IMG/VR virus record: IMGVR_UViG_3300013010_000001
Coordinates: 1 to 47,316 of that record
Strand: one strand, 5' to 3'
Length of the DNA: 47,316 bases
DNA from: a virus
Both the position numbers and the translations under genes were made by a program. This document shows positions 1 to 41,776 of the stretch, piece after piece. Position 1 is the first letter of the stretch, and each line of letters opens with the position of its first letter. The notes beneath the pieces were generated by a model that saw only the letters and a list, made by a program, of their open reading frames with translations, was not told the DNA's origin and did not search any database.

Positions 1-123
1 AGGCATCAGGACAATGCTTATGCACCTGTCGGCATTGAAAAGCACGACCAGACAATCCCACCGTGATCGCCACGCAAAGTTGTTCAGTATTCAAGAGGTG
101 GCTAACTGGTATGCGATTGTACC
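1..123. repeat. terminal direct repeat (circular contig overlap), left copy
   Basis: Bases 1-123 are identical to 47194-47316. The repeat lies inside one continuous reading frame (the MuF-like gene), so it is most simply the overlap left by assembling a circular or circularly permuted genome. A true short packaging repeat inside a head gene is less likely. Unique length is about 47193 bases. Confidence 0.9.
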
Positions 124-7145: not shown

Positions 7146-7175
7146 TGAATACGCACTCATCATGTGGTCATCGGA

Positions 7176-12074: not shown

Positions 12075-12084
12075 TTTGTATCCC

Positions 12085-12258
12085 TCAGTAAAAGTCAACA
12101 AATAAATCCCCCTTCTTCCCAACCTCGCAATCTTTCTCGATTGGCGAGATGAGTACGCCGAGGATTTGGCGGTGTTCGTCGAAGCCTGTTGCTAGCGGCA
12201 GATCCCCATGCTCCTCGTAGGCTGCCAGGAGGATTGGGAGTAGGTCGGTTAGGGTCAT
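12085..12258 (-). CDS. hypothetical protein, 57 aa
   Basis: ATG 12258 overlaps the upstream TGA (ATGA). Sequence MTLTDLLPILLAAYEEHGDL then a Gly/Asp-rich end (CEVGKKGDLFVDFY). The length, coupling and codon use match its neighbours. The small-phage-protein pattern 'L..LL..YEEHGDLPL' supports a real gene; role unknown. Confidence 0.6.
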   Translation of the reverse strand: MTLTDLLPILLAAYEEHGDLPLATGFDEHRQILGVLISPIEKDCEVGKKGDLFVDFY

Positions 12259-12575
12259 TTGTATTCTCGGTTAGCTGCGTCAACGGCGAACTGGATAATG
12301 CCGTCGAATTTCTCAGCACAGAAATTTGTTTGTTCTCGAAGGTAGTCAACGAGGATCGATTGATCCATCAGGCCCCATTTCGGATCGATGCCGGCTTTCA
12401 TTGCTGCGATCTCTTTCTTTAGCTGCTCGTTCTCTTCCTCTAGGCCGAGTTTCAGCCGCGCAACGGCCTCACCATGCAGCATCAGGTGGTAATAGTCATC
12501 AGCGGTAACGAACTCGCCGTGATCCGAGTATTCGCGCCCGTGGATGATGCCGACTAGATCGAATGCTTTCATCAT
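12255..12575 (-). CDS. coiled-coil phage protein, 106 aa
   Basis: Starts ATGATG at 12575, overlapping the upstream stop. N-terminal alpha/beta part (FDLVGIIHGREYSDHGEFVT), then a coiled coil (LKLGLEEENEQLKKEIAAMK) and a helical end. No function recognised. Confidence 0.6.
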   Translation of the reverse strand: MMKAFDLVGIIHGREYSDHGEFVTADDYYHLMLHGEAVARLKLGLEEENEQLKKEIAAMKAGIDPKWGLMDQSILVDYLREQTNFCAEKFDGIIQFAVDAANREYK

Positions 12576-12832
12576 TTTGATTCATCCGCGAATTTAGTTC
12601 TGAGCCCAGCCACTTCAATAGCAGCCTCGTAATCATCGGCATCCGGATAGATTCCACGGCGACGATGAATGATCAGTGTTACTGACTCGCGTGATGCCTG
12701 CCAAGCCTCCCACATGTAGCGCACAACCGAAAAATAGTAATTATCTGCGCCATCCATCCATCGGAAGTCCTCTTCTTCTAGAGGATTGCTCCCTGTTTTT
12801 GCCCACTCTTCAAACTGCTTCCTGCTATCCAT
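12572..12832 (-). CDS. hypothetical phage protein, 86 aa
   Basis: Start at ATG 12832 (MDSRKQFEEWAK), preceded by GGAGGGG. The opening FEEWAK and the later YMWEAWQASRE form a pattern shared by many short siphovirus and podovirus proteins. Function unknown. Confidence 0.65.
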   Translation of the reverse strand: MDSRKQFEEWAKTGSNPLEEEDFRWMDGADNYYFSVVRYMWEAWQASRESVTLIIHRRRGIYPDADDYEAAIEVAGLRTKFADESK

Positions 12833-12860
12833 AAACCCCTCCACCCAATAACGTTAAAGG

Positions 12861-12880
12861 TTAACTGTTCTCTGGAGAAC
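12861..12880 (-). promoter_or_regulatory. second copy of the palindromic site
   Basis: On the - strand a 20-base motif with core TTCTCCAGAGAACA, then TTAAC; 17 of 20 positions match the site next to the 1552-1580 promoter. GTTCTC and GAGAAC form the arms. The position 30 bases before the next gene suggests control of that operon, although no good -10 follows here. Confidence 0.45.
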
Positions 12881-13043
12881 TATTGATAGTCTTGCGCACT
12901 TCGATGCCGCCTATTGCCCAGCCTAAGCTCCAGCATTGCTCACAAGGCCCGTTCGGATGTGTATTGCAGCCACAGTCGCCCGCTTCCTCTAGCGTCCAGT
13001 CGTGCTGAATCTCTATTGCCCTGACCTCTTCGTCGTATGTCAT
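12861..13043 (-). CDS. Cys-rich small protein, 60 aa
   Basis: ATG 13043 with GGAGGG upstream, first gene after the promoter at 13070-13097. Contains GDCGCNTHPNGPCEQCW, five residues suited to binding zinc or forming a knuckle. Its last codons contain the palindrome GTTCTCTGGAGAAC at 12867-12880, so the site overlaps coding sequence. Confidence 0.6.
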   Translation of the reverse strand: MTYDEEVRAIEIQHDWTLEEAGDCGCNTHPNGPCEQCWSLGWAIGGIEVRKTINSSPENS

Positions 13044-13069
13044 TTCCCACCCTCCGTAAATGTCTGCTG

Positions 13070-13097
13070 ATTATGGCTTAGGTGTTGGGAGAGTCAA
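13070..13097 (-). promoter_or_regulatory. leftward promoter for the accessory block
   Basis: On the - strand TTGACT (13092-13097), 16-base spacer, CATAAT (13070-13075), just after the RusA stop. It would drive the run of small genes from 13043 leftward. Confidence 0.65.
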
Positions 13098-13098
13098 G

Positions 13099-13452
13099 CT
13101 ATTCTTCTAGGTCTTCGTAGATTTTTACGACTACCTTTCCGCCTGGAAACTTGTCGCGCACCCTAACGCGTAACTGAAATTTCACGTCGTCGATCTCCAG
13201 CGCTTCGGCAATCCCATCTCTACCAGACTTGAAGCTGGCGATCATGTTGTCATCGTCCCTGTGGCGCTTGTCAGGCGGAAAGAACTCAAGATCTAGCACG
13301 AGGTCTCCATCCGGTACAGAGTGGCTAGATTCGCCTGCTATGGCTTTGCAGGTGCCACGGTACATCTTGATGTATCCCATCTTTGCAGCCCAGTGGAGCT
13401 TTTTGTTTGGGTTGAGTTCCTTGGGCGGGTATGGCACGGTTATCTCAATCAT
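13099..13452 (-). CDS. rusA: RusA-type Holliday junction resolvase
   Basis: 117 residues. RusA fold signatures: the YPPKELNPNKKLHWAAK opening, then the catalytic acidic motif RHRDDDNMIASFKSGRDG and ALEIDDVKF, matching the family's D.DN....K...DG...DD order. It would resolve branched DNA made in recombination-dependent replication before packaging. Overlaps the next upstream gene by 8 bases at the end of the replication operon. Confidence 0.92.
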   Translation of the reverse strand: MIEITVPYPPKELNPNKKLHWAAKMGYIKMYRGTCKAIAGESSHSVPDGDLVLDLEFFPPDKRHRDDDNMIASFKSGRDGIAEALEIDDVKFQLRVRVRDKFPGGKVVVKIYEDLEE

Positions 13453-13702
13453 TCAGGCGATTCCGCAATGCTCGCTTCAGCTTGTCGAAAAATCGTTTGA
13501 AGCGCTCAGGCTGATCAACCTCAAGGCTCCAGCCTGGATCGTTGCACCAGCCGCAATGCTCCCCGCACGGACTAGGAATCTCTGGCGGGAAATGCTTGTT
13601 GATGATCGCCTTTGCTTCCGCCTTGATTGCTGCCTGCTTTGAAAAGTAACGACGCCCCTTGGTTTGCGCAAAATAAACGACTGGCTGTTGTCTTTCGATC
13701 AT
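13445..13702 (-). CDS. Cys-rich hypothetical protein, 85 aa
   Basis: Basic helical N-terminus (SKQAAIKAEAKAIINKHF), then CGEHCGWC, a likely zinc site, and an Arg-rich end. It lies between DnaB and RusA, overlapping both neighbours' ends, so a replication or recombination role is plausible but unproven. Confidence 0.6.
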   Translation of the reverse strand: MIERQQPVVYFAQTKGRRYFSKQAAIKAEAKAIINKHFPPEIPSPCGEHCGWCNDPGWSLEVDQPERFKRFFDKLKRALRNRLND

Positions 13703-13953
13703 TTCTTCACCTTCAGCAATAAATTCAGTTGGCGCCGGGTTTCGGCTTCGATGTCGGGCCTAGTCTTTAATTCGCGCTCAGCCCATGCGCGCCCCTTATT
13801 CCCCTTCAGCCCCAAATAGATCTGGCTGGCATGGGTCTGTGCTTGCTTCCATCTCTCTAGACAGTCCGCCTTCCACTCGTCGATGCTCTGGCGATCTGCA
13901 ATCGAAAGGGTTGCCAAATTCACCGGCCCAACATTCATAACACAGATAGTCAT
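13699..13953 (-). CDS. hypothetical protein, 84 aa
   Basis: Unrecognised helical basic protein (DRQSIDEWKADCLERWKQAQ, GRAWAERELKTRPDIEAETR). Follows DnaB by 12 bases and overlaps the next gene, so it belongs to the replication operon. Confidence 0.6.
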   Translation of the reverse strand: MTICVMNVGPVNLATLSIADRQSIDEWKADCLERWKQAQTHASQIYLGLKGNKGRAWAERELKTRPDIEAETRRQLNLLLKVKK

Positions 13954-13965
13954 CTTTTCTCTCCA

Positions 13966-15330
13966 TTAGAAAGTCATTCCGCGAACCTTCTCCGCCTGCC
14001 GTGGGGTGTCCTTTTCCTCTGGAATATAAGCTCCTGCTTCTAAAGGCGCGAACCGCGCATAACGACCCTGGAACATCGCATAGAAAGTCTTTGCTTCACT
14101 CTCACGCGAGATAGACAGGATTATCTCAGCAATGCCTTTGCGGTCGCTGTCTGGGTTGTACACCTCATCGCGATACACAAAGATTGCCATATCGCAATCC
14201 TGCTCAATCGAACCAGAGTCACGAAGGTCAGATGGCACCGGTCGTTTGTTGGGACGCTGTTCGAGCGCACGGTTGAGCTGAGACAGAAGAATCACGGGGA
14301 TTTTCATCTCTTTAGCAAGCAACTTGGCCTGACGGGAGATCTCTGTGACCTTTGCGACTTGGTTGGCCTTTGGATCGTCTGAGTCTAGCAAGCCAAGGTG
14401 GTCGATCATCACCATATCAAGCCCATGCTTGCGCTTGTGACGGCGGCACATAGAGCGAATTCGGCGCATGGTCAAGCCTGGGCGATCAGATAGCGTTATC
14501 CGAGATTCCTTGATTCCCTTGGCTGCAACAGTAAGTCCTGGCGTGTGATCACTGCACGCTGATCCATCTTTCATCGCGTCAAGTGGAATGCTCCCCTCGG
14601 CAGCAATCAGCCGGTCCATCAACTGGCGATTGCTCATCTCCAGGCTAATCACCAGAACCTCCTTCTTCTCGCGTATGGCCGCATTTCGCACGATATCCAT
14701 AGCTAGAGTCGTCTTGCCCATCTTCGGGCGCCCAGCGATGATTACAAGCTGTTCTGGCTGCAATCCCCCCGTGTGCTTGTCGAACTCTTCAAGCCCAGTC
14801 CTGATTCCCGAGATTGAATCGCCTTGGTTCATTCGCTTCTCAAGCAGATCCATGTGCTCAACAAGTACGTCGTAAGCCTCTACGGTCTCAGCGGTTGCCG
14901 ATTCTCCGTCGATAGCCAGGATCTCAGATTGAGCGGCTGCGATCTTGTCAGGCGTATCCATGGTGCTATGGGCGATCTGGTGAATCTCTTGTGCAGCAGC
15001 GATCAGGCATCGATCAAGCGAGCGCTCACGGACGATACGAGCGTATTGCTCCGAGTTAGCAACGCTAGGCGTGCCGTTCTGGATCTGAGCCGTGTAAGCA
15101 AATGCAGGATCACCATTCTCAAGCGTGCCGATATGCTCTCCGACAGTCAGGAAGTCAATCTTGCGGTTAAGCGAGTTGAGCTCAATGATTGCCGTGAAGA
15201 CGTCGGCATTGTCCTGCCAGTAGAAGTCCTTGGCCTCAAGGTCCGCAGCTAGCAGGTCAATCAGCGCAGGATCAATCATCATGGCGCCGAGGACGCTTTG
15301 CTCGGCTTCTAGGCTAAATGGATCTCTCAT
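13966..15330 (-). CDS. dnaB: replicative DNA helicase, DnaB family
   Basis: Start at ATG 15330 (MRDPFSLEAEQSVLGAMM), overlapping the upstream TGA; the 15357 start lies inside the neighbour. 454 residues. N-terminal DnaB domain, linker, then a RecA-like motor with TGGLQPEQLVIIAGRP and Walker A GRPKMGKTT near residue 200, Walker B MVMIDHLGLL, and the SQLNRALEQRPNKRPVPSDL motif with the arginine region. Hexameric helicase that would unwind the phage fork with the host polymerase. Confidence 0.95.
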   Translation of the reverse strand: MRDPFSLEAEQSVLGAMMIDPALIDLLAADLEAKDFYWQDNADVFTAIIELNSLNRKIDFLTVGEHIGTLENGDPAFAYTAQIQNGTPSVANSEQYARIVRERSLDRCLIAAAQEIHQIAHSTMDTPDKIAAAQSEILAIDGESATAETVEAYDVLVEHMDLLEKRMNQGDSISGIRTGLEEFDKHTGGLQPEQLVIIAGRPKMGKTTLAMDIVRNAAIREKKEVLVISLEMSNRQLMDRLIAAEGSIPLDAMKDGSACSDHTPGLTVAAKGIKESRITLSDRPGLTMRRIRSMCRRHKRKHGLDMVMIDHLGLLDSDDPKANQVAKVTEISRQAKLLAKEMKIPVILLSQLNRALEQRPNKRPVPSDLRDSGSIEQDCDMAIFVYRDEVYNPDSDRKGIAEIILSISRESEAKTFYAMFQGRYARFAPLEAGAYIPEEKDTPRQAEKVRGMTF

Positions 15331-18132: not shown

Positions 18133-18246
18133 ACAACCAGCGTAGCATGCGTGAACACAGGCCGAAAATTCATCGGAATCGAGATGGACGACAAGTATTT
18201 CGAAATTGCACAGAAACGAATCCAGGCGGCCATTGATTTGGCTTGA
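18133..18246 (+). pseudogene. orphaned original C-terminus of the methyltransferase
   Basis: In the frame through 18133-18246 the reading is [20 protein letters not shown], then [17 protein letters not shown], then stop. It aligns without gaps to the methyltransferase C-terminus (TTGVACVNLGRRFIGIEKDE, then KYF..). It has no start codon or ribosome site and begins right after the HNH stop at 18131. Together these show that the HNH unit arrived carrying its own substitute for this segment and pushed the native one out. The stop codon overlaps the -35 of the promoter at 18243. Confidence 0.85.
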
Positions 18247-18271
18247 CTGGAATCGCCAGCCGGGCTAAGGT
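18242..18271 (+). promoter_or_regulatory. rightward promoter, copy 2
   Basis: TTGACT (18243-18248), 17-base spacer, TAAGGT (18266-18271). The first 17 bases of the unit (18242-18258) are identical to 16746-16762. It drives the recombination operon from 18300. Confidence 0.7.
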
Positions 18272-18299
18272 TCGGGTTACAAATAGAGCGGAGGTGGTT

Positions 18300-18638
18300 A
18301 TGAGTGAATTTGAGAAAGCAATATCACAGGCAGCGCAGAATTCAGTTTTAAAAATCATCAGCGAAGGTAATTGGATTGCTACTGATTACTCGACTCGCTT
18401 CAAGCTGCCGCCAGAGATGCTGGCACAAGTGTGGGATATGGTCGACATTGAAGGATTGAAGCGAAAAATGGCAGATCGAATCGAGTCGGAACTTGCAGAC
18501 CGAATCGTTAACCACATGGCTGCCGAGCTTGCCACTGACATAAAGCAGATACTTTCCGTAACTGAACGGAGAGAGGCAATCCGGAGTGTTGCCCGTGAAC
18601 ACCTAGGTCACATTATGCAAGAAGGCATTTCAAAATGA
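18300..18638 (+). CDS. hypothetical phage protein, 112 aa
   Basis: Start at ATG 18300 (MSEFEKAISQAAQNS) with GGAGGT upstream. Almost wholly helical (GLKRKMADRIESELADRIVN, HMAAELATDIKQIL), ending EGISK. First gene of the recombination operon and coupled by ATGA to the next. Function unknown. Confidence 0.65.
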   Translation: MSEFEKAISQAAQNSVLKIISEGNWIATDYSTRFKLPPEMLAQVWDMVDIEGLKRKMADRIESELADRIVNHMAAELATDIKQILSVTERREAIRSVAREHLGHIMQEGISK

Positions 18639-18760
18639 CCTACCGCGACGCACTATGGTCCGCCATCATCGGCGAGGCTGACAAGGCAGGAAAACGGATT
18701 ACGCGGGCTAAGCGGGATCGGTATATGAAATTGGTTTCTTTTTGGAGGAAGGTGCAATGA
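18635..18760 (+). CDS. hypothetical basic protein, 41 aa
   Basis: ATGA overlaps at both ends. MTYRDALWSAIIGEADKAGK then a basic helix (RITRAKRDRYMKLVSFWRKV). Very small, but coupling and neighbours' spacing make it a likely gene. No family recognised. Confidence 0.55.
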   Translation: MTYRDALWSAIIGEADKAGKRITRAKRDRYMKLVSFWRKVQ

Positions 18761-18996
18761 GTAAAATTGAAGATATTCCGGCTTTTCCATTGACTAGCGC
18801 CGCTGATCATCAGTATTGCGGCATGTCACTTCGCGATTACTTTGCGGCTAAGGCTATGCAAGGCATGTTTTCAAATGATGCGCTTCTTGCCAGATATCAC
18901 AATGATGGACTGGTTAATATGATTAGCCCTGAAGTTTTAGCGGTTACGGCAGCTTATTCAATGGCCGACGCAATGCTAGCCGAGCGTGCGAAATGA
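18757..18996 (+). CDS. hypothetical phage protein, 79 aa
   Basis: Start at ATG 18757 (MSKIEDIPAFPLT), overlapping the previous stop. MSLRDYFAAKAMQG followed by AVTAAYSMADAMLAERAK is the hallmark layout of a very widespread small phage protein (GMTLRDYFA...AYAMADAML.AR). Role unknown. Confidence 0.75.
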   Translation: MSKIEDIPAFPLTSAADHQYCGMSLRDYFAAKAMQGMFSNDALLARYHNDGLVNMISPEVLAVTAAYSMADAMLAERAK

Positions 18997-19886
18997 ATGA
19001 ACTTCAGGAAGACTGGATCGCCGGCATTGAGGAGCCAGAAAATCCAGAGTGCCAGAAGTTCTCGGTAGGTCGGCACGAAGGAGTTGAAAATGAGGCCTAT
19101 CATTCGAGTGAAGGCTACAGCAACAGCTTCCTGACCGCCGTCCTGCGCTCACCTGCGCACGCCATGAGTCGCGGCAAGTGGAAGTCAACGCGGAATATGG
19201 AGATCGGCTCGGCGTTTCATAGCAGCACTCTGGAGCCTGCCCTGTACAAGCGTGACTACAAGATCGTCGAGTGCGACGCCCGCACGTCAACGCTGTACAA
19301 GCAGGCGTGCAAGGATCATCCGTCAGCGTTGGTGCTGACACTGGCCGAGAGCGAGACAGTCAAGGGCATGACTGCTGGCGTGTACCGGAATCCGAAGCTG
19401 CGCGAGATCATCGAGCAGCCAGGAAAGGCAGAGGTTGCGTATTTCGCGGTCGATCCTGATACGGGGCTGACGATCAAGTGCAAATTCGACTGGTTGACAG
19501 ACTCGAACATCTGCATGGACATCAAAAAAACGCAAGACGCACGCATGTACAAGTTCTCGCAGTCGATAAACACGTACATGTATCACATGCAGGATGCGTT
19601 CTATCGTCACGTTTTCCGCTGCGCAACTGGCGAGGATTTGCAGGAATTCTACTTCGGCGCAGTCGAGGAGCAGAAGCCGCATGCATCCAATCGCTGGAGG
19701 CTTGGTCCTGAGTCGCGCAAGAAGGGTGATGCTTTATTTCGGGAAGCGCTTACTACGCTCGCGATTTGTCTTGATCGCAATGAATTTCCTGCGTATCCTG
19801 ACGACGGAGACGACGAAATTGAAATACCTAACTACGCGCTCGATCTAGATGACGAGCTGGACCTAAGCGGCCTGGAGGATATGTAA
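18993..19886 (+). CDS. RecE-like PD-(D/E)XK exonuclease (DUF3799 type)
   Basis: 297 residues. N-terminal YHSSEGYSNSFLTAVLRSPA and GSAFHSSTLEP are typical of RecE/DUF3799 nucleases. The core is CKFDWLTDSNICMDIKKTQD (D, then D-x-K), with a conserved Gln/Tyr helix after it (FSQSINTYMYHMQDAFYR). Expected 5'-3' dsDNA exonuclease making 3' tails for annealing recombination. Acidic C-terminus (LDLDDELDLSGLEDM). Next genes: a probable annealing partner and SSB. Confidence 0.85.
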   Translation: MNELQEDWIAGIEEPENPECQKFSVGRHEGVENEAYHSSEGYSNSFLTAVLRSPAHAMSRGKWKSTRNMEIGSAFHSSTLEPALYKRDYKIVECDARTSTLYKQACKDHPSALVLTLAESETVKGMTAGVYRNPKLREIIEQPGKAEVAYFAVDPDTGLTIKCKFDWLTDSNICMDIKKTQDARMYKFSQSINTYMYHMQDAFYRHVFRCATGEDLQEFYFGAVEEQKPHASNRWRLGPESRKKGDALFREALTTLAICLDRNEFPAYPDDGDDEIEIPNYALDLDDELDLSGLEDM

Positions 19887-20876: not shown

Positions 20877-20940
20877 TATAATCGGTGTTGCGGCTAGGGG
20901 GCACCCAAAAAGCAGTTAGTCACTGCCTGCCGCATACATT
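20877..20940 (+). ncRNA. structured 5' leader and promoter of HNH gene B
   Basis: Extended -10 TGATATAAT (TATAAT 20877-20882), then CGGTGT, outer stem TGCGGC/GCCGCA (20889-20894 with 20929-20934) and inner hairpin GCAGT/ACTGC (912-916 with 922-926 in the 20 kb count). A small GGG/CCC pair could make a third arm. Same order and outer stem as the leader at 7176-7237; the inner stem differs in sequence but not in pairing. Confidence 0.6.
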
Positions 20941-20968
20941 CCGACTACCACTAGACTGGTGCGATCTG

Positions 20969-21628
20969 TTGAAAACCTGCTACAGCTGTCACGTCGAAAA
21001 ATCATACTCAGAATTCCACAAATGCTCATCTCGCAAGGATGGGTGTCAGAGAGCGTGCAAATTATGCTCTGCTAGGATAAGCGCCGAGCGAAACTCGAAA
21101 AATCCAGAGGTCAGAAAAAAGCAATGGGCTTCGTGGAGCGCCGAAAACAAGGACAAAATAAAAGAAAAAGATGAAAAATATCGTCTCGAAAACAAAGATC
21201 ACGTTACTGCGTACAGGAAAAAATATTACGAAGCTAACAAGGAAAGCATTTTGGCCGTCGGTGCAAAATATCGCGCTGATGATCCGGAGGCGCAAAAGGC
21301 TAGATGCGCCAGATGGGCGAAAGCCAATCCGGAGAAGTGCCGAGCGAAGGAAAGAAAACGCAGAGCGCTCAAGCTAAACGCCGAAGGAAGCCATACGATT
21401 CATGACATAGAAAAGATGTTTTGGCTACAGAAAGGAAAGTGCGCAAATTGCAAGTCAAAGTTGAAAACAGAAGGCAAGGGTGTCTATCACATAGATCACA
21501 TCATGCCGCTCACGAAAGGCGGCGGTGATGGCCCTGACAATCTCCAGCTTCTTTGCCCCGGCTGCAACATAAAGAAAAACGCTAAAGATCCACTTGACTG
21601 GGCCAAGGAAAACGGTAAGCTGCTCTGA
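20969..21628 (+). CDS. HNH homing-type endonuclease B
   Basis: Paralogue of the protein at 6435-7145. Aligning the two puts the start at TTG 20969 (LKTCYSCHVEKS), giving 219 residues; no ATG or strong ribosome site is nearby. Cys4 knuckle (CYSC, CKLC), basic NPE-repeat helices (WAKANPEKCRAKERKRRAL), then HNH: CANCKSKL, YHIDHIMPLTKGGGDGPDNL, LLCPGCNIKK. Inserted between SSB and a small HTH gene. Confidence 0.82.
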   Translation: MKTCYSCHVEKSYSEFHKCSSRKDGCQRACKLCSARISAERNSKNPEVRKKQWASWSAENKDKIKEKDEKYRLENKDHVTAYRKKYYEANKESILAVGAKYRADDPEAQKARCARWAKANPEKCRAKERKRRALKLNAEGSHTIHDIEKMFWLQKGKCANCKSKLKTEGKGVYHIDHIMPLTKGGGDGPDNLQLLCPGCNIKKNAKDPLDWAKENGKLL

Positions 21629-34800: not shown

Positions 34801-34974
34801 CGCAATTGCCCCCGAAAGTTTAGATAGAGTGCTAGTAAAAGTCTTTGAAGATGCGTCCGCCTTTGACATTGACGTGTCAAGCTTGTCTAGCTGGCGCTCG
34901 GCCTGAGTCGTTCCGGTAACTAGTTTCGCCGTATCAATTTCAGCGGTATACGTGATAGTGCCAAGGTTGCTCAT
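31876..34974 (-). CDS. tail tape measure protein
   Basis: 1032 residues. Begins LGTITYTAEIDTAKLVTGTT and QAERQLDKLDTSMSKADASS, the usual tape-measure opening with coiled coils. Ala-rich membrane-like segments (ALRTAMTFLGGPAGVIFLAA) in the centre and near the C-terminus, then GGRQYGGGVAAGGMYRVNE, the Gly-rich family tail. By the usual ~0.15 nm per residue the tail would be about 150 nm (inference). Coupled to the upstream chaperone gene by ATGA. Confidence 0.95.
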   Translation of the reverse strand: MSNLGTITYTAEIDTAKLVTGTTQAERQLDKLDTSMSKADASSKTFTSTLSKLSGAIAAVVAANALRDMADLVQKYQEMSERVQMATASQAEFEMVQKRLLSTANATYRSLGEAQELYIRTADSLRSMGYSTSQALDVTDSLSFAFVKNATSADRASGAIAALSKSVNKGKVEADAWETVIAAVPSVIEDIALASGKTAAQVRALGAAGKLTAKDLTEGLRKSLDENAKSAAAMSNNLVDASVRTKTALTAVLVEIENQTGGLQALTDGIIGAADAMLSFGGDSEKVATFLNLATTAATSLAAVIAGRLVGATLGYVAAQGLVIKNMVTQISGAAAVAGANLMLAKAENAAAQAALAQAVAAEKAAIGLQTHAAQAAVLSAAQARAATATAGLSTAIAASTSVATASTVAMGALRTAMTFLGGPAGVIFLAAAALVYFASSAKTTKVDVDALNSSLGKLGFYQLAKSANDTQDDIAKLNKQLSAAMNDFNTLSKRPFESDDSFVKRQTEARAELERVNGELKSRRDLLDNIAKRQEEIAKPKEQPKTGSPEGLPPATTSEEGQKAIENLKEQLALAKLTGEAKAKLQAIQKLGAAATEQEKAEAAALGAEIYKLETATKALGASNKKQKTEAEQLAKRASAEEKRGIEQNIEVYARLGSELAAVGQNARDVAMQQAELSLNEYATPEQIQQVRDMAGALYDLNEAKSNKALLGQVDPAAGAQQSLEKQLKDLDTLKQAKMLSDQDYLTFKEQAETDYNARMMEIEAQRFAAQSAGNAAILAGLDALSTSGSQALAGLLSGTMSLRDAMGNIANTVLNSVIGSFVQMGTDWVKQELVMMAATKAKEAATIGGIGAVTAAQAGATGAIAATTTATAATTGTAVAGSMAPAAGLSSTASFGGAAVIGGAALLATMALAKTAGGRQYGGGVAAGGMYRVNETGAPEIFNAANGRQYMMPNTRGEVVSNKDATSGGGGSSAPIVNVNNYSGQQATASSKFSESDRAWVVDVIVGDMQGGGKTAQTTNQITGTQRAGR

Positions 34975-35591
34975 TTCTTCACCTGATTCTGACGAAGCTT
35001 GTTAATTTCAGCGAGTCGCGCCATTGCGTCGTCGTGTTCTTCTACCGGAATCGTCTCTGGCTTGCCGAACTTGGATTGCATGGCGCCAGAGAACTCTGTC
35101 ATTGTGAGATTCCAGGCTTCGGCGGTTGACATGCCAAGGTGCGCGACGGCTTGCGATACGAATTCGCGGGCGTTGAACTCTGCTGTGTATTCTTTCACTG
35201 GCTTAGCTGGCAGACCTTCAGGCTTTAGACCGATGATCCCGTGACGCATCAGTGAGCGCGCCAGGTGAACCATGTCCTGATGCGGCATAGCGCCCATCAC
35301 GAACGACCCCCAGCGCGTACCCATATGGCCGACAAGCGGGGTTGCATCATCCTCACAGCAAGCCACAAGCACGTCATAGGCGATTGACGTTACGTCTCGC
35401 TCCCATGCACGATAAGACTGCGACGGCCAGAACGGGTTGATCTTTGGCGGCTCGAACAGGGCGGTGAATTTCTCCACGATCTCGGCTGGCGAGCCTAGTG
35501 AATCCATAGCCGAAAGCGATGGCCGAAACAGAAATTCGCGATCGCCTGCTGAAACGCCAATCTCCCCTATGCTGACGATGGGCTTGCGCAT
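34971..35591 (-). CDS. tail assembly chaperone-like protein (DUF6246 type)
   Basis: 206 residues, immediately upstream of the tape measure, where tail chaperones are encoded. Pattern: VSIGEIGVSAGDREFLFRPS, LVACCEDDATPLVGHMGTRW, AHLGMSTAEAWNLTMTEFSG. The last part (SQAVAHLGMSTAEAWNLTM) is typical of chaperones that coat the tape measure. No second frame or slippery site for a lambda G/GT-like fusion is evident. Its ribosome site is weak, possibly because a GIY-YIG gene was inserted just upstream. Confidence 0.75.
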   Translation of the reverse strand: MRKPIVSIGEIGVSAGDREFLFRPSLSAMDSLGSPAEIVEKFTALFEPPKINPFWPSQSYRAWERDVTSIAYDVLVACCEDDATPLVGHMGTRWGSFVMGAMPHQDMVHLARSLMRHGIIGLKPEGLPAKPVKEYTAEFNAREFVSQAVAHLGMSTAEAWNLTMTEFSGAMQSKFGKPETIPVEEHDDAMARLAEINKLRQNQVKK

Positions 35592-35636
35592 TTTTCGCGT
35601 CCATAAAAATAATGATCCATTTTAGCATTTTTGTGG

Positions 35637-35664
35637 TTGACTAAATTCTACGAACAGATACAAT
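35637..35664 (+). promoter_or_regulatory. promoter of GIY-YIG gene 1
   Basis: TTGACT (35637-35642), 16-base spacer, TACAAT (35659-35664), then AAGGA before the ATG at 35694. It lies in the antisense orientation to the tail operon. Confidence 0.65.
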
Positions 35665-35693
35665 TGACTCATTTGTAAAATAAGGATTATCTA

Positions 35694-36827
35694 ATGATCA
35701 AGGATTTGAGAAGATCGCTGATTGGTAAGTCTTGGGTATCAGCGTCCGGATCTACGATTTTTGTGTATGCGGAAATCAAAGGATCAATCAGCACTGGGAA
35801 AAGCTACATAGTTGCTTGCAGCGTATGCTCTTCCGACAGCGAGCTTTGGCCAGAAATACATATGAATAGGACTTCTGTTCGAGATGAAAAGCTATCTTGC
35901 TCGTGCTCTGCCAAGGTTAATTATACGATGCGTCAGCAGATTTTGCGCGCCTCAAGAAAAGCAAAAGAAATATGCGTCAGGATTGACGAAATAAAAACTT
36001 CTAGAACGGCAAGAACATCGACTGTAAAAACTTACTGCTTAAAACACAACGAGGAAAACGAATGTCGCATAAGTACGTTACTTGAAAGAAAATATTGTTG
36101 CTCTATCGGTGCGGTGGAGGCTGTTCAGCGTGAAAGGCAAAGAGGTGACGAAGAGGCAACAAATATATTTATGTCTTCTGGACGATTTACGCACGGAACG
36201 TACTTTGTTAGATCTGAGTCAAGAAGGCTTTGGGATGTCCATTGCCCTAAATGCAAGAGCGACGAATACGCTAAGGCGGGAATAAGCTCAGTATGGACAT
36301 CATCCACATCCGGACTTTGCGGAAATGCAAATCCATGTCGTTGTGCAAAAAGCCATTACTGGTCACTGGAGGAAAACGAGAAAAGACTTGAGCTGTTTGG
36401 CGTTAAGTTTATTAGATGGCACAAGATCAGCCCCACAGCGCATAAAAGCTATTTCGTTACCGCATGCGATACACATGGCGAAAGAATTGTTTCCTTAACA
36501 TCTGCGCTGTCCGGAAGAGGGTGTCCAGGATGTGCAGTATCTGGATTTAATCAGGGGTCTAATGGATTTTTGTACTGCCTGAAATCTGAAGACGGGGCAT
36601 TCCTTAAGATAGGAATAAGTAACAAGCCTGGCGCCAGGTTCGCTGCATTAAAAAAGAAAACACCTTTCGAATTTTCAGTAATCGGTCAAAAAGAAATGCC
36701 TGGATTTATGGCAATGCAGAAAGAAAGAGCGCTACACGCGAGATTTATGAACGCTGGATTTAAAGGATTTGATGGCGCTACGGAATGGTTTAGATATGAC
36801 GACGAAATAGTTTCAATATTTGAATAA
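35694..36827 (+). CDS. GIY-YIG homing-type endonuclease with Cys repeats
   Basis: 377 residues, antisense to the tail genes. The N-terminal 270 residues hold several Cys/Trp-rich zinc-finger-like repeats (VACSVCSSDSELWPEIHMNR, HCPKCKSDEYAKAG, TACDTHGERIV..GCPGCAVSGF). The C-terminus is a GIY-YIG-like domain: FLYCLKSEDGAFLKIGISNK, an Arg on the next helix, QKERALHARF, and FDGATEWFRYDDEIV. Clear paralogue of 39454-40347. Own promoter and terminator; inserted between the chaperone and major tail protein genes. Confidence 0.8.
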   Translation: MIKDLRRSLIGKSWVSASGSTIFVYAEIKGSISTGKSYIVACSVCSSDSELWPEIHMNRTSVRDEKLSCSCSAKVNYTMRQQILRASRKAKEICVRIDEIKTSRTARTSTVKTYCLKHNEENECRISTLLERKYCCSIGAVEAVQRERQRGDEEATNIFMSSGRFTHGTYFVRSESRRLWDVHCPKCKSDEYAKAGISSVWTSSTSGLCGNANPCRCAKSHYWSLEENEKRLELFGVKFIRWHKISPTAHKSYFVTACDTHGERIVSLTSALSGRGCPGCAVSGFNQGSNGFLYCLKSEDGAFLKIGISNKPGARFAALKKKTPFEFSVIGQKEMPGFMAMQKERALHARFMNAGFKGFDGATEWFRYDDEIVSIFE

Positions 36828-36830
36828 GAA

Positions 36831-36856
36831 AGGGGCCTTTCGGCCCCTTATTTTTA
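36831..36856. terminator. bidirectional terminator
   Basis: AGGGGCC/GGCCCCT stem with TTTC loop (36831-36848). T-rich on both sides: TTATTTTT on +, and TTTCTTATTC on -. Serves both the GIY-YIG gene and the convergent major tail protein gene. Confidence 0.8.
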
Positions 36857-37582
36857 TGCCACCGTAACCACGGTTGTATCGCTTTTCGTAGGGTCTACTA
36901 CTGAAGTAGCTGTGATCGTGGCTGATCCCGCAGTCAAGCCGGATACGCGACCAGAGCTGTTAACACTGGCAACCAACGGGGCGCTTGTAGTCCATACTAC
37001 CGCCTGGTTGGCAGCAGCAGGAAGAATTGCCGAGTCAATGTTTGTTACGTTACCGATTGCCACGCTGGCAGTAGCAGGAGTCGTGGTTACCGACACTACA
37101 GGGATAGGGGTAGCCTCAACGATCACGCTAGGCAGGCCGCCAGGACGACCGGTTGCACTTGCAGTCATCGAGTAGGTGGCGATCTCGTCGTAAGGATACT
37201 CTTCGCTGAATTCGGTCAGAATGCAGAAACCGATAGTGGTCTTGATTGGACCTGTCAGACGAATCCACACGTATGGCTGCGGGTCATTGACGAAGTGTTC
37301 GGCCAGAAGCTGCTGGTTCGAAGTGGTGCCGTCGTCGCGCTTGGTTACACCGTCAATCGAGACTTCGAAGGTCTTGTAGGTGATCAAGGTGTCACGGAAG
37401 CTGCCAACCGAGTCGTCAGCGGTTGCGTCAACGGTATCGGCAGACATAGTGATCGACTTGTTACGAGCTGCGCCCAGAGGAAGCCATGTCAGGGTCATAG
37501 GATCTACATCGCCGCAAGCAAGTGCAAACTCAGCGAGTACGCTCTTGCCTACGAATTTGGAACTTGCACAGTTAAGGGCCAC
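36854..37582 (-). CDS. major tail tube protein with C-terminal Ig-like (BIG_2) domain
   Basis: Start at GTG 37582 (VALNCASSKFVGKS), after a strong AAGGAGGTG; the frame to 37714 is noise. 242 residues. Tube domain: FALACGDVDPMTLTWLPLGA, SADTVDATADDSVGSFRDTL, YDEIATYSMTASATGRPGGL. Residues ~155-242 form a bacterial Ig-like domain (TTTPATASVAIGNVTNIDSA, VVWTTSAPLVASVNSSGRVS, GLTAGSATITATSV), displayed on the tube surface. The Ig part is likely adhesive and not needed for assembly. Confidence 0.88.
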   Translation of the reverse strand: MALNCASSKFVGKSVLAEFALACGDVDPMTLTWLPLGAARNKSITMSADTVDATADDSVGSFRDTLITYKTFEVSIDGVTKRDDGTTSNQQLLAEHFVNDPQPYVWIRLTGPIKTTIGFCILTEFSEEYPYDEIATYSMTASATGRPGGLPSVIVEATPIPVVSVTTTPATASVAIGNVTNIDSAILPAAANQAVVWTTSAPLVASVNSSGRVSGLTAGSATITATSVVDPTKSDTTVVTVA

Positions 37583-37637
37583 AAGGCACCTCCTTTGAAG
37601 TTGAAAGTACCGCCCAAAACGAGCAGATACGGATAGT

Positions 37638-38024
37638 TTAACATGCCAGCTCGAAGTTGATTTCGTACCAGTTTCGATTTGTCTCTGTGTAATAAGGACC
37701 CTGAATACTTCCAAGCGGGCGAATATTCATCATGCAACTTGTTGAAAAGTGCTCAATAGCTGCATCAAACAGGGATTCCGCGAACAACTCGGAAGCCTCT
37801 GTATCCCCAAGCGCACGACCATTAGCGCGACCGGTTACGATCACGCGAATCTGCGGATACTGGATATCACCATTAGGAGATCGGCCAGGATTAGACCAGA
37901 CGGCCACGAACTTCTTGGTTGAGTTATTCGTCTCTTCCCACATGCCGCGACTGATCGTATAGCCAGCAGTCGAAACGTAAGCCTCTAGCCAGTCTCGAAA
38001 CAGATTGATAGGTGTATGGCTCAT
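37638..38024 (-). CDS. tail terminator-like protein
   Basis: 128 residues upstream of the tube gene, as for lambda U-type tail terminators. Fold cues: an N-terminal helix (INLFRDWLEAYVSTAGYTIS), strands (KFVAVWSNPG, PQIRVIVTGRANGRALGDTE), helix, and a final strand pair. One base shared with the next gene's stop. Confidence 0.75.
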   Translation of the reverse strand: MSHTPINLFRDWLEAYVSTAGYTISRGMWEETNNSTKKFVAVWSNPGRSPNGDIQYPQIRVIVTGRANGRALGDTEASELFAESLFDAAIEHFSTSCMMNIRPLGSIQGPYYTETNRNWYEINFELAC

Positions 38025-38437
38025 TAGATTTTCATATGCCTTTCAATGATTGAGTCGATATCGCGGCGTGCGTCTGAGTCTTCGAATGCTTTGCGCAGGA
38101 ATCCGGGTTCGGCGTCAGGGTCCCACACATTGCCACGTGACGGATCTGAAGTTGAACGCGGCGTGTTTGTACCCTTTAGCGTTCCCTTGGCATCGTGTAC
38201 GGCTGCTGCATAGGCTGCTGTGTATCCAAGCATACCCGAAACCTTGCTGCCTGATTTTGTGATCTGGCGGAACTGACTATTAATCAGGTTGCTAGTATCG
38301 ATTGGCGTCATTGTTGCAGCGTAACCGGCAGCCGTTATCAGAACTTCGGTTAACGCACGCTCAGCCATTGGCCCGCTAATCTCGCCGGTAATGCGCTTGA
38401 GTGATTGGCGAACTTCGCGCAGGCCACGGACTGGCAT
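38024..38437 (-). CDS. HK97 gp10-like tail completion protein
   Basis: 137 residues. GLREVRQSLKRITGEISGPM, TMTPIDTSNLINSQFRQI, MLGYTAAYAAAVHDAKGT and the C-terminal FLRKAFEDSDARR fit HK97 gp10/minor capsid-neck proteins, which occur between the head closure and terminator proteins. TAATG-type coupling on both sides. Confidence 0.85.
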   Translation of the reverse strand: MPVRGLREVRQSLKRITGEISGPMAERALTEVLITAAGYAATMTPIDTSNLINSQFRQITKSGSKVSGMLGYTAAYAAAVHDAKGTLKGTNTPRSTSDPSRGNVWDPDAEPGFLRKAFEDSDARRDIDSIIERHMKI

Positions 38438-38781
38438 TAGACAGTCTCCAAGTCGTACTCATCCTCATAGCCAAACGCCGACATGCCGTGACGCGCAATC
38501 TTGCGAATCTCTGCGGCCTGTACTGCGTCCCATGCTTGTGCGGTAGTGTCGCCGTATGCGATTCTGTCTAGATACTTTGGGCGCACGTCGCCCGTGTAGT
38601 AAATGTCACGAGTAACGAACTCTGCGCCCTCAGTGTCTCGGGATTGACGGGATACGCCTTCGTGGCCGCACAGGATGATGTAAGGGGTTCCGTATGTTAC
38701 AGGACCGCCCCATTCGCCTTCTGCGAGCCTTGGATATACGGTCGCGGTGTCGATCATGTACCACGCGGACATGAATGCCAT
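38437..38781 (-). CDS. head closure / head-tail joining protein
   Basis: 114 residues, second neck gene before the gp10-like protein. Beta-rich: DTATVYPRLAEGEWGGPVTY, TPYIILCGHEG, GAEFVTRDIYYTGDVRPKYL, DRIAYGD. These features and the position match SPP1 gp16/HK97-type stoppers. An alternative ATG lies at 38772. Confidence 0.7.
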   Translation of the reverse strand: MAFMSAWYMIDTATVYPRLAEGEWGGPVTYGTPYIILCGHEGVSRQSRDTEGAEFVTRDIYYTGDVRPKYLDRIAYGDTTAQAWDAVQAAEIRKIARHGMSAFGYEDEYDLETV

Positions 38782-38999
38782 TATGCGATCCCCATGCCGA
38801 TGACTATCCCAGCAATAAACACTAGAACCATGATGAACCCTGCGCCAATCAGCGGAATAGGTAGATCGCGATGACTTGATTCAGGTGAGCCGCCGACCAT
38901 CTCAACCTTTGGACGCTCAGCGTTTTTATTTGGAGCAGGCCTTGCCTCGTCAATCTCGACGAACATATAGCCTGATGGAGTCCAGTCTAAACGCATCAT
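38781..38999 (-). CDS. small structural-operon membrane protein, 72 aa
   Basis: ATGATG at 38999 overlaps the preceding TAA (TAATG). N-terminal strand region (MMRLDWTPSGYMFVEIDEAR), then one C-terminal membrane segment (IPLIGAGFIMVLVFIAGIVI). Unusual between the neck genes; no family recognised. Confidence 0.6.
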   Translation of the reverse strand: MMRLDWTPSGYMFVEIDEARPAPNKNAERPKVEMVGGSPESSHRDLPIPLIGAGFIMVLVFIAGIVIGMGIA

Positions 39000-39385
39000 T
39001 AGCAGCACTTCCCGCCAGTTGATACCCACAGGCCAGCACTTGCGCCAATCACAGGGATCAAGCCGTCTGTACACCCAGACTTATCTAGGTTGTATAAAAG
39101 CCCTCGAACATTATTGAACGCATCTGTTTCGTTCGTGTACCGGAAAGACTGACTTGCGCCGCTTGGCGCCGTCTGAGAACTGATATATTTCGAAGAGCCT
39201 GGGATAGACATCAAGCCCATCAGGTAAAGCATAATCAGCAAGATTTTAGAGTCGGAGTATCCAGCCCCGATAAGGCACTGCTCGACAGCCGCAGCCTCAT
39301 CAAGGATAGCCTGTAGTACAAAATCAGGCGCTAGAGGCACTCCCATTGACGTAAGGAACGCTTTTAGCTGGTCTAAAGTCGGCAT
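38999..39385 (-). CDS. head-tail adaptor-like protein
   Basis: Start at ATG 39385 (MPTLDQLKAFLTSMGVPLAP) with GGTGAAG upstream; 128 residues. N-terminal helices (DFVLQAILDEAAAVEQCLIG, AGYSDSKILLIMLYLMGLM) resemble gp6-type connectors that sit under the portal. Role inferred from position after the capsid genes and before the stopper. The promoter of GIY-YIG gene 2 starts 19 bases upstream. Confidence 0.65.
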   Translation of the reverse strand: MPTLDQLKAFLTSMGVPLAPDFVLQAILDEAAAVEQCLIGAGYSDSKILLIMLYLMGLMSIPGSSKYISSQTAPSGASQSFRYTNETDAFNNVRGLLYNLDKSGCTDGLIPVIGASAGLWVSTGGKCC

Positions 39386-39403
39386 TTCTTCACCATTTAT
39401 TGG

Positions 39404-39432
39404 TTGCAATGACAATTCTATCACGGCATAAT
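39404..39432 (+). promoter_or_regulatory. promoter of GIY-YIG gene 2
   Basis: TTGCAA (39404-39409), 17-base spacer, CATAAT (39427-39432), then CGGAGG before the ATG at 39454. Confidence 0.6.
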
Positions 39433-39453
39433 GTATTTAAAATCGGAGGATGC

Positions 39454-40347
39454 ATGCCTAAAAGATTGAAGCTTTCTGAATTCGTTTCGAGATCATCAAA
39501 AACGCATGATGGATTTTACTCATACGAGCACTCTATCTACAGGAACAACTCATCTCCTACCGCTATAACGTGCCCATATCATGGCGTTTTCTTCCAGTCG
39601 CCAATGTCTCACCTTGCTGGACAGGGATGTACAGAGTGCGGAAAACAGAAGAAATCGAGACTAAACACCAAAACAACAGATCAGTTCATTCAGTCTGCGA
39701 TATCTGTTCATGGCGACAGGTACTCATACGAAAAATCTTTTTACGTAAGAAATGACAAGAAGCTAGAGATCATTTGCAGAACGCACGGAGTATTCCTTAT
39801 GACTCCTAACGCGCATACCGGAGGACAAGGGTGCTCTAGGTGCGCCGACGAATTAAATGCGCTAAAGAGGTTAAAGCCTTTTTCTGAATTTCTATTGCAG
39901 GCTAATGCGGTGCATAACAACAAATATTGCTACGTAGAATCAACTTATTCAGGAGACTCAAAGAAGCTTGAAATTATCTGCGAAGATCACGGATCATTCT
40001 TGCAATCGCCAAATAGACATCTTAGAGGAAGCGGATGTCCAAAGTGCAGCGTTCCTGGGTTTGACGTAGATAAACCAGCTCACTTGTATCTGCTCAGGAG
40101 TGATTGCGGAGCCTACATAAAAGTCGGGATAGCTAACAAGCTGCGAGATCGACAAACGAAGCTCAGAAAGAGAACTCCGTTCAAATTCGAAGTAATCCAT
40201 ACTTTTGAATCTGAGGGCTGCGAGATCGCAGCTCTCGAAAAGCACTACCATTCAAGGCTAGAAAGCTGCGGCTTTAGATATTTTGATGGAGCCACTGAAT
40301 GGTTCAAAATAGATAGGGACATCGTGTCTGAGATACAAGGTCTGTAA
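39454..40347 (+). CDS. GIY-YIG homing-type endonuclease with three DUF723-like repeats
   Basis: Start at ATG 39454 (MPKRLKLSEFVSRSSKTHDG) after CGGAGG; 297 residues. Three tandem repeats of about 65 residues with F....VH..KY.Y, then I.C..HG.F.QSP..H..G.GC..C (e.g. ITCPYHGVFFQSPMSHLAGQ, IICEDHGSFLQSPNRHLRGS), the DUF723 zinc-binding module. C-terminal GIY-YIG-like domain HLYLLRSDCGAYIKVGIANK, with Arg, a Glu (ALEKHYHSRL) and FDGATEWFKIDRDI. Paralogue of 35694-36827. Inserted antisense between connector and capsid-side genes. Confidence 0.82.
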   Translation: MPKRLKLSEFVSRSSKTHDGFYSYEHSIYRNNSSPTAITCPYHGVFFQSPMSHLAGQGCTECGKQKKSRLNTKTTDQFIQSAISVHGDRYSYEKSFYVRNDKKLEIICRTHGVFLMTPNAHTGGQGCSRCADELNALKRLKPFSEFLLQANAVHNNKYCYVESTYSGDSKKLEIICEDHGSFLQSPNRHLRGSGCPKCSVPGFDVDKPAHLYLLRSDCGAYIKVGIANKLRDRQTKLRKRTPFKFEVIHTFESEGCEIAALEKHYHSRLESCGFRYFDGATEWFKIDRDIVSEIQGL

Positions 40348-40374
40348 AAAAGCCCTCAATCACGAGTGCTTTTT
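40347..40374. terminator. terminator of GIY-YIG gene 2
   Basis: AAAAAGC/GCTTTTT stem with inner CTC/GAG pairs. The T5 run is on the + strand side, and the A5 run gives T5 on the - strand. Overlaps the stop of the convergent gene at 40356. Confidence 0.6.
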
Positions 40375-40538
40375 ACTGTATGGCGTTTGGCTCTAGGGCT
40401 GGCAACCTCAAGCACCTTCAAAGCCTCTTCAGGCAGCGATACGCACTTACCCCTGAGCCACTGCGGGCATGAGTCAGCTTCTACGATGTCGCCAGCCTCA
40501 AGGCCGTTCGTTGGGTATGTCACGCGGAATCTAGCCAT
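40356..40538 (-). CDS. small head-operon protein, 60 aa
   Basis: MARFRVTYPTNGLEAGDIVE, a strand-rich start, then CPQWLRGKCVSLPEEALKVL and a basic tail (SPRAKRHTVKSTRD). Start shares one base with the previous stop (TAATG). Unknown; small proteins after the capsid gene are often neck or decoration proteins. Confidence 0.6.
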   Translation of the reverse strand: MARFRVTYPTNGLEAGDIVEADSCPQWLRGKCVSLPEEALKVLEVASPRAKRHTVKSTRD

Positions 40539-40714
40539 TACTCTTTATCCTTTGGTGGTCGGCCACGGCGTGGAGCTTCGATTTCTACCGATTCAACCTC
40601 GACAGCCTTGTTTACCAGAGTAACTGGCAGCGACTCATGTTTGACACGAGTGCCAACATCAAGTTCTACTCCGCCAACAAACACACCTTTCTCTGTAATC
40701 TCAAACTCTTTCAT
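40538..40714 (-). CDS. small head-operon protein with AT-hook-like end, 58 aa
   Basis: ATG 40714, 58 residues: MKEFEITEKGVFVGGVELDV, a polar middle, and a tail IEAPRRGRPPKDKE. The RRGRPPK core matches the AT-hook minor-groove motif (RGRP flanked by basic/Pro). Lies right after the capsid terminator and is coupled to 40356-40538. Could touch DNA inside the head; that is inference. Confidence 0.6.
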   Translation of the reverse strand: MKEFEITEKGVFVGGVELDVGTRVKHESLPVTLVNKAVEVESVEIEAPRRGRPPKDKE

Positions 40715-40732
40715 TTCTAAACCTCAATAAAA

Positions 40733-40752
40733 AGGGGCCCGCTAAGGCCCCT
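40733..40752 (-). terminator. terminator downstream of the capsid gene
   Basis: AGGGGCC/GGCCCCT stem with 6-base loop (40733-40752). On the - strand it is followed by TTTTTATTG. Probably lowers expression of the neck and tail genes relative to capsid. Confidence 0.8.
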
Positions 40753-40768
40753 ATTTTAACTCAGCAGA

Positions 40769-41776
40769 TTAGCCCTTGGTGAACTGGGCATAACCCGCGT
40801 TACCAGCATAATCACGCTTGAACTGTGGAGCAACTGCGGTCATGATCTGGAAGCTGTACTCGTCGGTGAAGTTTTTACGTTCAATCGGCATAGTGGTAAC
40901 AGGCATACCAGTCAGGATCTCAACAACCCGACGCTCTTTGACCACTGCCAGAATTTCGTTGGCAGGTACTGCGGTCGAAGGAACGATTGCCAGAACGCCA
41001 GGGATCGCCATGATGCGAGTCAGGATGGTGTTCTGTGGGGCTGCGGTCACGTAGTCGGCAACCGACATTGCGAACCAATCACCGTAGTTAAGGTATACAG
41101 TCACACCGCCGTAGTAGTTCTTGGCTTGCAGTCCTTGAAGAACTTTGGTGATTGCCGAAACCCACTGAGCGCCGGTAGCGGTCACGAGGTCGAAGTTACC
41201 GAACAGGCCGGTAGCGCGGCCTGGAGCAGTACGCAGGCCGTAGACCTGAGCGCCGCTAACGTTGAACTTGGTGTCGCCGTTAACAACCAGGTCTTCAAGC
41301 TTCTCGATGATGCGGCGGTTGCCGTTGTCACGAGTGGCGGCGTCCAGATACTGCCAGCCACCATCTTGACGAGCAGCCTCAACATCGCGCCAGCCGAAGG
41401 TGAAAGTGGTGTCGTAGATCGGCAGCGGAGTGCCTTCGTAATCGAGAACCGGTGCGTCTGCTTTGGCGCGGCTACGGCCATCCAGCGAGCTGCTCACTTC
41501 GCCAGAGTCGGAGACTTTGGAGAAGTAGTTAAGAACCTTGCCGATTGGCACGTTCTTTTGCAGGCTTGACAAGTCGTTGAACACACCGAGTTGAGCACGC
41601 TGCAAAGTGATCAAGTCTTGGTCGTAGGTAGCCCAAGCATCACGCGGGATGGTATAGGCGTTACCGATCAGCTCGCCTTCGCTTTCTTTTGCGAGACGTT
41701 CCTGGCGGGCGTTGTGAGCGCGGCGCTTGCCGATAACGGCGGCCTCTTGCTCTTTGTTAAAAGTCAAAATAGGCAT
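40769..41776 (-). CDS. major capsid protein (DUF6260 type)
   Basis: 335 residues, the size and style of HK97-fold capsids. Key stretches: FNDLSSLQKNVPIGKVLNYF, TTFTFGWRDVEAARQDGGWQ, RRIIEKLEDLVVNGDTKFNV, GLRTAPGRATG, and a beta-rich C-terminus (EILAVVKERRVVEILTGMPV, EYSFQIMTAVAPQF). It lies between decoration/protease genes and the neck genes, with an isolated strong terminator after it, as expected for the most abundant virion protein. Confidence 0.88.
   Translation of the reverse strand: MPILTFNKEQEAAVIGKRRAHNARQERLAKESEGELIGNAYTIPRDAWATYDQDLITLQRAQLGVFNDLSSLQKNVPIGKVLNYFSKVSDSGEVSSSLDGRSRAKADAPVLDYEGTPLPIYDTTFTFGWRDVEAARQDGGWQYLDAATRDNGNRRIIEKLEDLVVNGDTKFNVSGAQVYGLRTAPGRATGLFGNFDLVTATGAQWVSAITKVLQGLQAKNYYGGVTVYLNYGDWFAMSVADYVTAAPQNTILTRIMAIPGVLAIVPSTAVPANEILAVVKERRVVEILTGMPVTTMPIERKNFTDEYSFQIMTAVAPQFKRDYAGNAGYAQFTKG

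Follow-up and report, generated by a model that had tools for sequence, protein, structure and literature searches.

The viral record IMGVR_UViG_3300013010_000001 of the IMG/VR database (positions 1 to 47,316) was analyzed at its full length of 47,316 bases, and this whole stretch is referred to below as the window. Its structural genes, from the capsid gene to the tail genes, are encoded on the minus strand and the portal gene on the plus strand. Two open reading frames (ORFs) lie antisense to the head-tail genes. They are here named HEG1 and HEG2, and are very probably free-standing homing endonuclease genes (HEGs) of the T5orf172 type, a subfamily of the GIY-YIG nucleases (PMC10448857), that would cut and home and have settled in slots of the late operon. 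HEG1 and the end of the major tail protein gene are 26 nt apart, and HEG2 lies between the DUF7370 gene and the second small gene after the capsid gene (Table 1). The original prediction, which was made from the sequence alone, described a pair of genes with a common C-terminal GIY-YIG-like domain and zinc-repeat front ends, placed at gene junctions on the strand opposite to the head-tail genes, and all of these features were recovered.

The C-termini of both proteins match T5orf172 (PF10544) and MUG113 (PF13455) above the Pfam cut-offs, and both match PHROG 681, annotated as endonuclease (8e-51 for HEG1, 8e-62 for HEG2). At the front ends, Pfam detects CapR modules in three stretches of HEG1 (4.7e-9), and in HEG2 a DUF4379 domain above the cut-off (2e-6) together with a DUF723 match below it. 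Judged by sequence, each protein thus has a zinc-module region of CapR, DUF723 or DUF4379 type, which is predicted to bind DNA. The Tyr, Arg and Glu of the GIY-YIG-type motif are catalytic residues, and they are invariant in the alignments made for the two genes, as Y294/R315/E344 in the 10 sequences of the HEG1 set and Y212/R233/E262 in the 8 sequences of the HEG2 set; these cover 18 of the 20 HEGs described below, leaving out that of L026 (a near-copy of the one in L067) and the frameshifted L062. The catalytic role of the motif Glu is stated in PMC10448857. Both ORFs are open throughout. AlphaFold models of HEG1 and HEG2 gave mean predicted local distance difference test (pLDDT) values of 80.7 and 83.2 and predicted template modeling (pTM) scores of 0.46 and 0.37, and because the latter are low the models do not fix the arrangement of the domains. 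No NCBIfam family was matched by either protein, and a Pfam search found no RepA_N domain in either up to an E value of 1. Relatives were detected by tblastn in 754 (HEG1) and 781 (HEG2) phage records, all below 60% identity, and the family appears to be widespread. A scan of IMG/VR viral contigs for close relatives retrieved none for HEG1 and a single locus, L071, for HEG2.

Table 1. Features of the window around HEG1 and HEG2.
Feature	Position	Strand	Remarks
HEG1, 377 aa	35694..36827	+	CapR zinc modules and T5orf172/MUG113 (GIY-YIG-type) nuclease
HEG2, 297 aa	39454..40347	+	DUF4379/DUF723-type zinc modules and T5orf172/MUG113 nuclease
HEG1 promoter-like site, TTGACT-16-TACAAT	35637..35664	+	10/12; same place as the site of the 69-aa gene in relatives
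Weak promoter-like site upstream of HEG2, TTGCAA-17-CATAAT	39404..39432	+	9/12, not above chance
Two-way terminator-like hairpin	36830..36849		Between the 3' ends of HEG1 and the major tail gene; about -16 kcal/mol
Imperfect two-way hairpin	40345..40375		Overlaps the HEG2 stop and the 3' end of the 40356-40538 gene; -10 to -11 kcal/mol
DUF6246/PHROG 791 gene	34971..35591	-	Tail gene at the promoter side of the HEG1 slot; domain and PHROG matches
Major tail (tube) protein gene	36854..37582	-	GTG start, inferred from sequence
DUF7370 gene	38999..39385	-	ATG start, inferred; one block in common with HEG2 in L071
Capsid gene (PHROG 771 virion structural protein/DUF6260)	40769..41776	-	Domain and PHROG matches

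Relatives of the window were collected by IMG/VR scans with the capsid, tail terminator and PHROG 791 proteins, and T5orf172 HEGs were counted at three junctions: between the major tail protein and PHROG 791 genes (tail junction, complete in 39 contigs), between the capsid and DUF7370 genes (40) and downstream of the portal gene (22). The window is included in each count, and the sets differ in size since contigs end at different positions. As the contigs derive from shared metagenomes and include near-copies (e.g., L021/L023, L059/L060 and L087/L101), the junction counts are not independent. Excluded from them were L103 and L104 (30% hits) and the Citrobacter record L072; the capsid-side count also dropped loci with the capsid and DUF7370 genes on different strands, and a portal-side site was counted given at least 1 kb downstream, with the HEG within 200 bp. 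HNH-type genes were not systematically counted.

At the tail junction, 6 of the 39 contigs carry a T5orf172 HEG, every one antisense, and 33 have none. In the window, L018, L058 and L062 it adjoins the tail gene, and in L026 and L067 it lies on the other side. L053 has a seventh endonuclease-type insert at this junction, an antisense HNH/endonuclease VII-like gene. The HEG-free junctions are mostly not bare, being occupied by other genes, many of them antisense. Chief among these is a gene of 69 aa, which 34 of 38 relatives have in antisense orientation at the tail junction, mostly downstream of a promoter-like site. Its frame is open in all 31 distinct copies, and the differences between copies fall mostly at third codon positions (8936/6682/17076 for positions one to three). 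The pattern TTGAC-16..18-TAnnnT, in the direction of the 69-aa gene and no more than 160 nt from the PHROG 791 start, is present in 36 of 39 contigs compared with 0.44 in shuffles (30 of 39 for a stricter pattern), although the contigs are related sequences and hence not independent. Downstream of the tail gene, every one of the 39 contigs has a hairpin. In L018, L058 and L062 the order is 69-aa gene, HEG, and then a hairpin abutting the tail gene stop, which is near-identical to the one in the window.

The window lacks the 69-aa gene and has HEG1 in its slot, with the HEG1 start about 30 nt after the TTGACT-16-TACAAT site, at the usual promoter place of the relatives. HEG1 may therefore have replaced the 69-aa cargo and use the slot promoter. 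The antisense layout at this junction probably predates HEG1, and the arrangement is better ascribed to the slot itself. Since 34 of 38 relatives use the slot for the 69-aa gene, an antisense gene is tolerated there in members without HEG1, and HEG1 as the first antisense gene at this junction is rejected.

Each gene had also been assigned its own promoter and terminator. For HEG1 this agrees with the pattern at the equivalent place in relatives and with the downstream hairpin, which a terminator scan (35500-40800) reports as terminator-like on both strands. The HEG2 site is without such support from relatives, and the imperfect hairpin at the HEG2 stop was not reported by the same scan; L038, a contig without a HEG at this site, has a better-paired counterpart of it at the equivalent position. 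A candidate effect on the late operon, a weaker terminator in HEG carriers, was dropped: the 8 nt that follow the stem contain 5-6 T in the four tail-side carriers and 6-7 in 30 others, a difference too small to use, and 5 of the 39 hairpins were not parsed by the script.

The 69-aa protein has a hydrophobic start and conserved cysteines (e.g., in L055), and one copy weakly matches PHROG 6794 (E 0.0014). An antisense gene of phage swi2, located upstream of the tape measure region, carries the annotation 'immunity to superinfection'. Inspection by eye also revealed tiny antisense ORFs with about 10-12 hydrophobic residues, right before the terminator hairpin in the tail slot of L034 and before a terminator hairpin in the capsid-side slots of L037 and L059.

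On the capsid side, 7 of 40 junctions have a T5orf172 HEG (window, L024, L027, L034, L035, L051 and L071), all antisense, and 33 do not. Both genes of the window are accordingly of a kind that is absent from most relatives, in keeping with the proposed antisense insertion of GIY-YIG-type homing genes, and the counts at the two junctions reject the universal presence that would have spoken against it. The capsid-side stretch is a cargo hotspot, 0.6 to 4.3 kb long, with sense and antisense cargo; in L038, the list of ORFs of at least 55 aa has no entry between the small genes and DUF7370. A block common to the window and L071 (window 38997-40339) has 80.9% DNA identity over 1,343 nt and extends from the last codons of HEG2 through the DUF7370 stop. 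Their DUF7370 proteins are 93% identical, a value that does not exceed 70% in any of the other 45 contigs listed, while their capsid proteins are only 26% identical, and HEG2 appears to move together with DUF7370.

Other cargo of this slot includes a gene of L016 (10558-11391, minus strand) that matches the poly(3-hydroxyalkanoate) depolymerase family TIGR02240 of NCBIfam with 393.6 bits (cut-off 250.6). The family match was run for L016, and homologues of the gene are antisense in the capsid-side slot of 16 of 40 contigs (L016 and 15 others). It is possibly an auxiliary metabolic gene; no phage-borne polyhydroxyalkanoate depolymerase was found among the literature matches listed, which is not proof that none exists. 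In L029 and L057 the slot holds an antisense gene that, by eye, resembles a prohibitin-like lipoprotein.

The third junction gave a similar picture, with a T5orf172 HEG downstream of the portal gene in 7 of 22 contigs, all facing against it. Across the three junctions, all 20 T5orf172 HEGs face against the neighboring gene, these being related copies and not 20 independent events. An HNH-like ORF in L068 is in the sense orientation (by eye), and the antisense rule is therefore claimed for T5orf172 HEGs only. Among 12 hand-picked records of other phages, which are no random sample, the T5orf172 HEGs were sense in 7, antisense in 3 and at strand boundaries in 2. Antisense placement as a rule, and a slot older than the HEG within it, seem to be less usual, and neither was described in what was available of the open-licence literature matches listed.

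The two genes had been regarded as paralogues, and this holds only in the sense of one wide family. In a comparison of the nuclease domains of all 20 HEGs, HEG1 and HEG2 are 44% identical, and HEG2 is 88% identical to its counterpart at the same junction in L071. The three best identities of HEG1 (55, 55 and 53%) are with HEGs of its own junction; all five other tail-junction HEGs are 48-55% identical to it, and those of other junctions reach 49%. By tree path, the capsid-side HEG of L024 is marginally the nearest to HEG1. A tree of the 20 domains requires 4 changes of junction compared with 9.9 in shuffles (0 of 200 as low), with the qualification that the alignment has 93 columns, branches are long and near-copies add to the grouping. 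Pairing HEG1 and HEG2 as sisters is rejected (approximately unbiased test, p-AU 3.4e-7), and this, with the 44% identity, rules against a recent duplication within this phage. The front ends do differ, as had been noted, but the diverged target specificity deduced from this is weakened by the distribution of front-end types. CapR-type front ends occur in L018, L058 and the window, all beside the tail gene, and L062, with its HEG at the same position, has a front end that looks CHG-repeat-like by eye (the piece searched had no zinc-domain match), so that front-end type probably does not strictly follow site. The L062 gene is split by a frameshift, and frameshifted copies are expected of decaying HEGs, according to the part of PMC13405050 available to us.

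Evidence bearing on mobility comes from L026 and L019 (the same contig as L067), which derive from different IMG datasets and have one and the same HEG at the tail junction. Around it the pair shows two differences in 1,184 nt, a tract that covers the HEG plus flanks of 107 nt toward the 69-aa gene and 165 nt in the opposite direction (98 nt of it within the PHROG 791 gene). The two contigs have 89.7% identity over 12,643 aligned bases, and their next longest tract with at most two differences is 350 nt. This homing-like signature is what homing with short co-conversion would be expected to leave. Two pairs of portal-site HEGs showed no excess identity (81 and 72%, like their surroundings).

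The identity of HEG1 and HEG2 as HEGs is well supported by anatomy and distribution; that they bind and cut DNA and home, and that HEG1 displaced the 69-aa gene and is transcribed from the slot promoter, is inferred. The zinc modules would bind DNA and, in co-infections, the C-terminal domain would cut near the junction in relatives lacking the HEG; repair templated by the phage that carries it would then copy the HEG with short flanks. In this way HEGs would have settled in two late-operon slots that often hold antisense cargo in this phage group, HEG1 standing in the place of the 69-aa gene, behind the same kind of promoter-like site and ending in the hairpin that abuts the tail gene stop, and HEG2 in the cargo hotspot beside DUF7370, with which it would move. 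Several observations weigh against this account. The near-identical tract concerns a relative of HEG1 and neither gene of the window, and the nuclease domains nearest to HEG1 are only 55% identical. Since these phages are mosaic, that tract, and HEG tracts generally, could have traveled by general recombination. Similarity of the tail-gene ends is not clearly raised among HEG carriers (last 60 nt, 67.3% for 6 HEG pairs and 64.8% for 595 others; preceding 75 nt, 60.0 and 64.8%), and co-conversion of the tail-gene end by HEG1-type genes is therefore unsupported. The window and L071 share further blocks besides that of HEG2 and DUF7370, one in the protease/scaffold region (1,324 nt, 78%) and one in the small gene that precedes the slot (201 nt, 88%). 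A consensus scan of 35500-40800 found 3 promoter-like sites where 6.8 were expected by chance; as matches are fewer than the chance number, the promoter consensus alone proves nothing. Foldseek with the HEG1 model gave no significant match, the best (E 0.045) being an unrelated entry, and the GIY-YIG protein Slx1 was listed at E 0.5 with a probability of 0.92.

The genes could instead be residents kept for a function that benefits the phage, by antisense tuning of tail and capsid levels or by attack on competing phages or satellites. There are precedents in CapR, a zinc-module protein of PLE satellites that represses capsid expression and is related to HEG front ends, and in Odn of phage ICP1, a T5orf172 nuclease turned against satellites, both described in PMC10448857 and PMC8263062; the uniform orientation of the 20 HEGs would also suit such a role. 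Yet the patchy presence (6/39, 7/40 and 7/22), the differing front end at one site, the frameshifted L062 copy and the near-identical tract of L026 and L019 all fit a mobile element better, and the lack of a RepA_N match in either gene argues against an Odn-like role, so we regard residence for function as improbable. Even less credible, in our view, is that the genes are passive cargo with inactive nucleases, moved by general recombination and without homing. The strong mosaicism of these phages, the presence in the slots of cargo with no recognized nuclease and the frameshift in L062 are in its favor, but the nuclease motif residues are invariant in the 18 aligned sequences, the HEG tract of L026 and L019 is more than three times longer than any other with at most two differences in that pair, and both ORFs of the window are intact.

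Within the preferred interpretation, that of free-standing homing genes, we tentatively raise a wider possibility, which is at present rather doubtful: that the late operon holds fixed antisense cargo slots, with a promoter at one end and a two-way terminator at the other, in which antisense HEGs drive the exchange of cargo. Homing would copy the HEG along with pieces of flanking cargo or structural genes, and could erase cargo. This is suggested by the missing 69-aa gene in the window and by the shared block of HEG2 and DUF7370. The natural pairs of contigs with and without a HEG at mapped junctions provide material for asking whether homing endonucleases drive cargo exchange, and the data suggest that an antisense expression slot can be older than the selfish gene it houses.

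Elsewhere in the window, HNH/endonuclease VII-like genes (PHROG 1035) at 6435-7187 (minus strand) and 20885-21628 (plus strand) are possibly further homing-type genes. Rfam and tRNA scans of the window gave no match, and a scan of genome contigs with the capsid protein retrieved no relative and hence no host or prophage. The capsid gene product is read as the major capsid protein after the annotation of its relative in Citrobacter phage K1M (L072), to which it is about 52% identical. That phage has antisense genes at 18199-19017 and 11423-14196, following the tail gene and the capsid-side genes, with annotations that include ParB and DNA polymerase III beta, and because antisense genes occur there too the slots may be old.

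The T5orf172 HEG family, with its zinc modules, proximity to essential genes and domain shuffling, has been described by Barth, Dunham and Seed in 2023 (PMC10448857), and with the precedent of segD in phage T4 the genes of the window are of an already known kind. The HEGs of ICP1 and other phages described in the former article share with those described here the T5orf172/MUG113 nuclease, repeated CapR or DUF723/DUF4379-type modules, the free-standing state, a position near capsid and other essential genes, and domain shuffling. The terms 'antisense' and 'opposite strand' do not occur in its main text; here, all 20 HEGs face against their neighbor. HEG1 and HEG2 have the T5orf172 nuclease in common with Odn but are without its RepA_N domain. 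To our knowledge, the CapR-type repressors of PLEs have no nuclease domain, and HEG1, which shares their type of zinc module, differs from them in having one. As reported in PMC2988022, T4 segD is a free-standing and uncharacterized GIY-YIG endonuclease gene that lies antisense between gene 23, the major capsid gene, and gene 24. It is flanked by terminators on both sides, has no recognized promoter of its own and is the sole exception in orientation among the homing endonuclease genes of T4. Compared by position, orientation and terminators only, HEG1 and HEG2 resemble it as free-standing antisense GIY-YIG genes among structural genes, and segD is a precedent for such a gene next to capsid genes. 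Unlike in T4, the antisense orientation is here the rule for this type of HEG, and most relatives have a promoter-like site in the tail slot, which suggests that antisense homing genes beside capsid and tail genes, represented in T4 by segD alone, can be the rule in a phage group.

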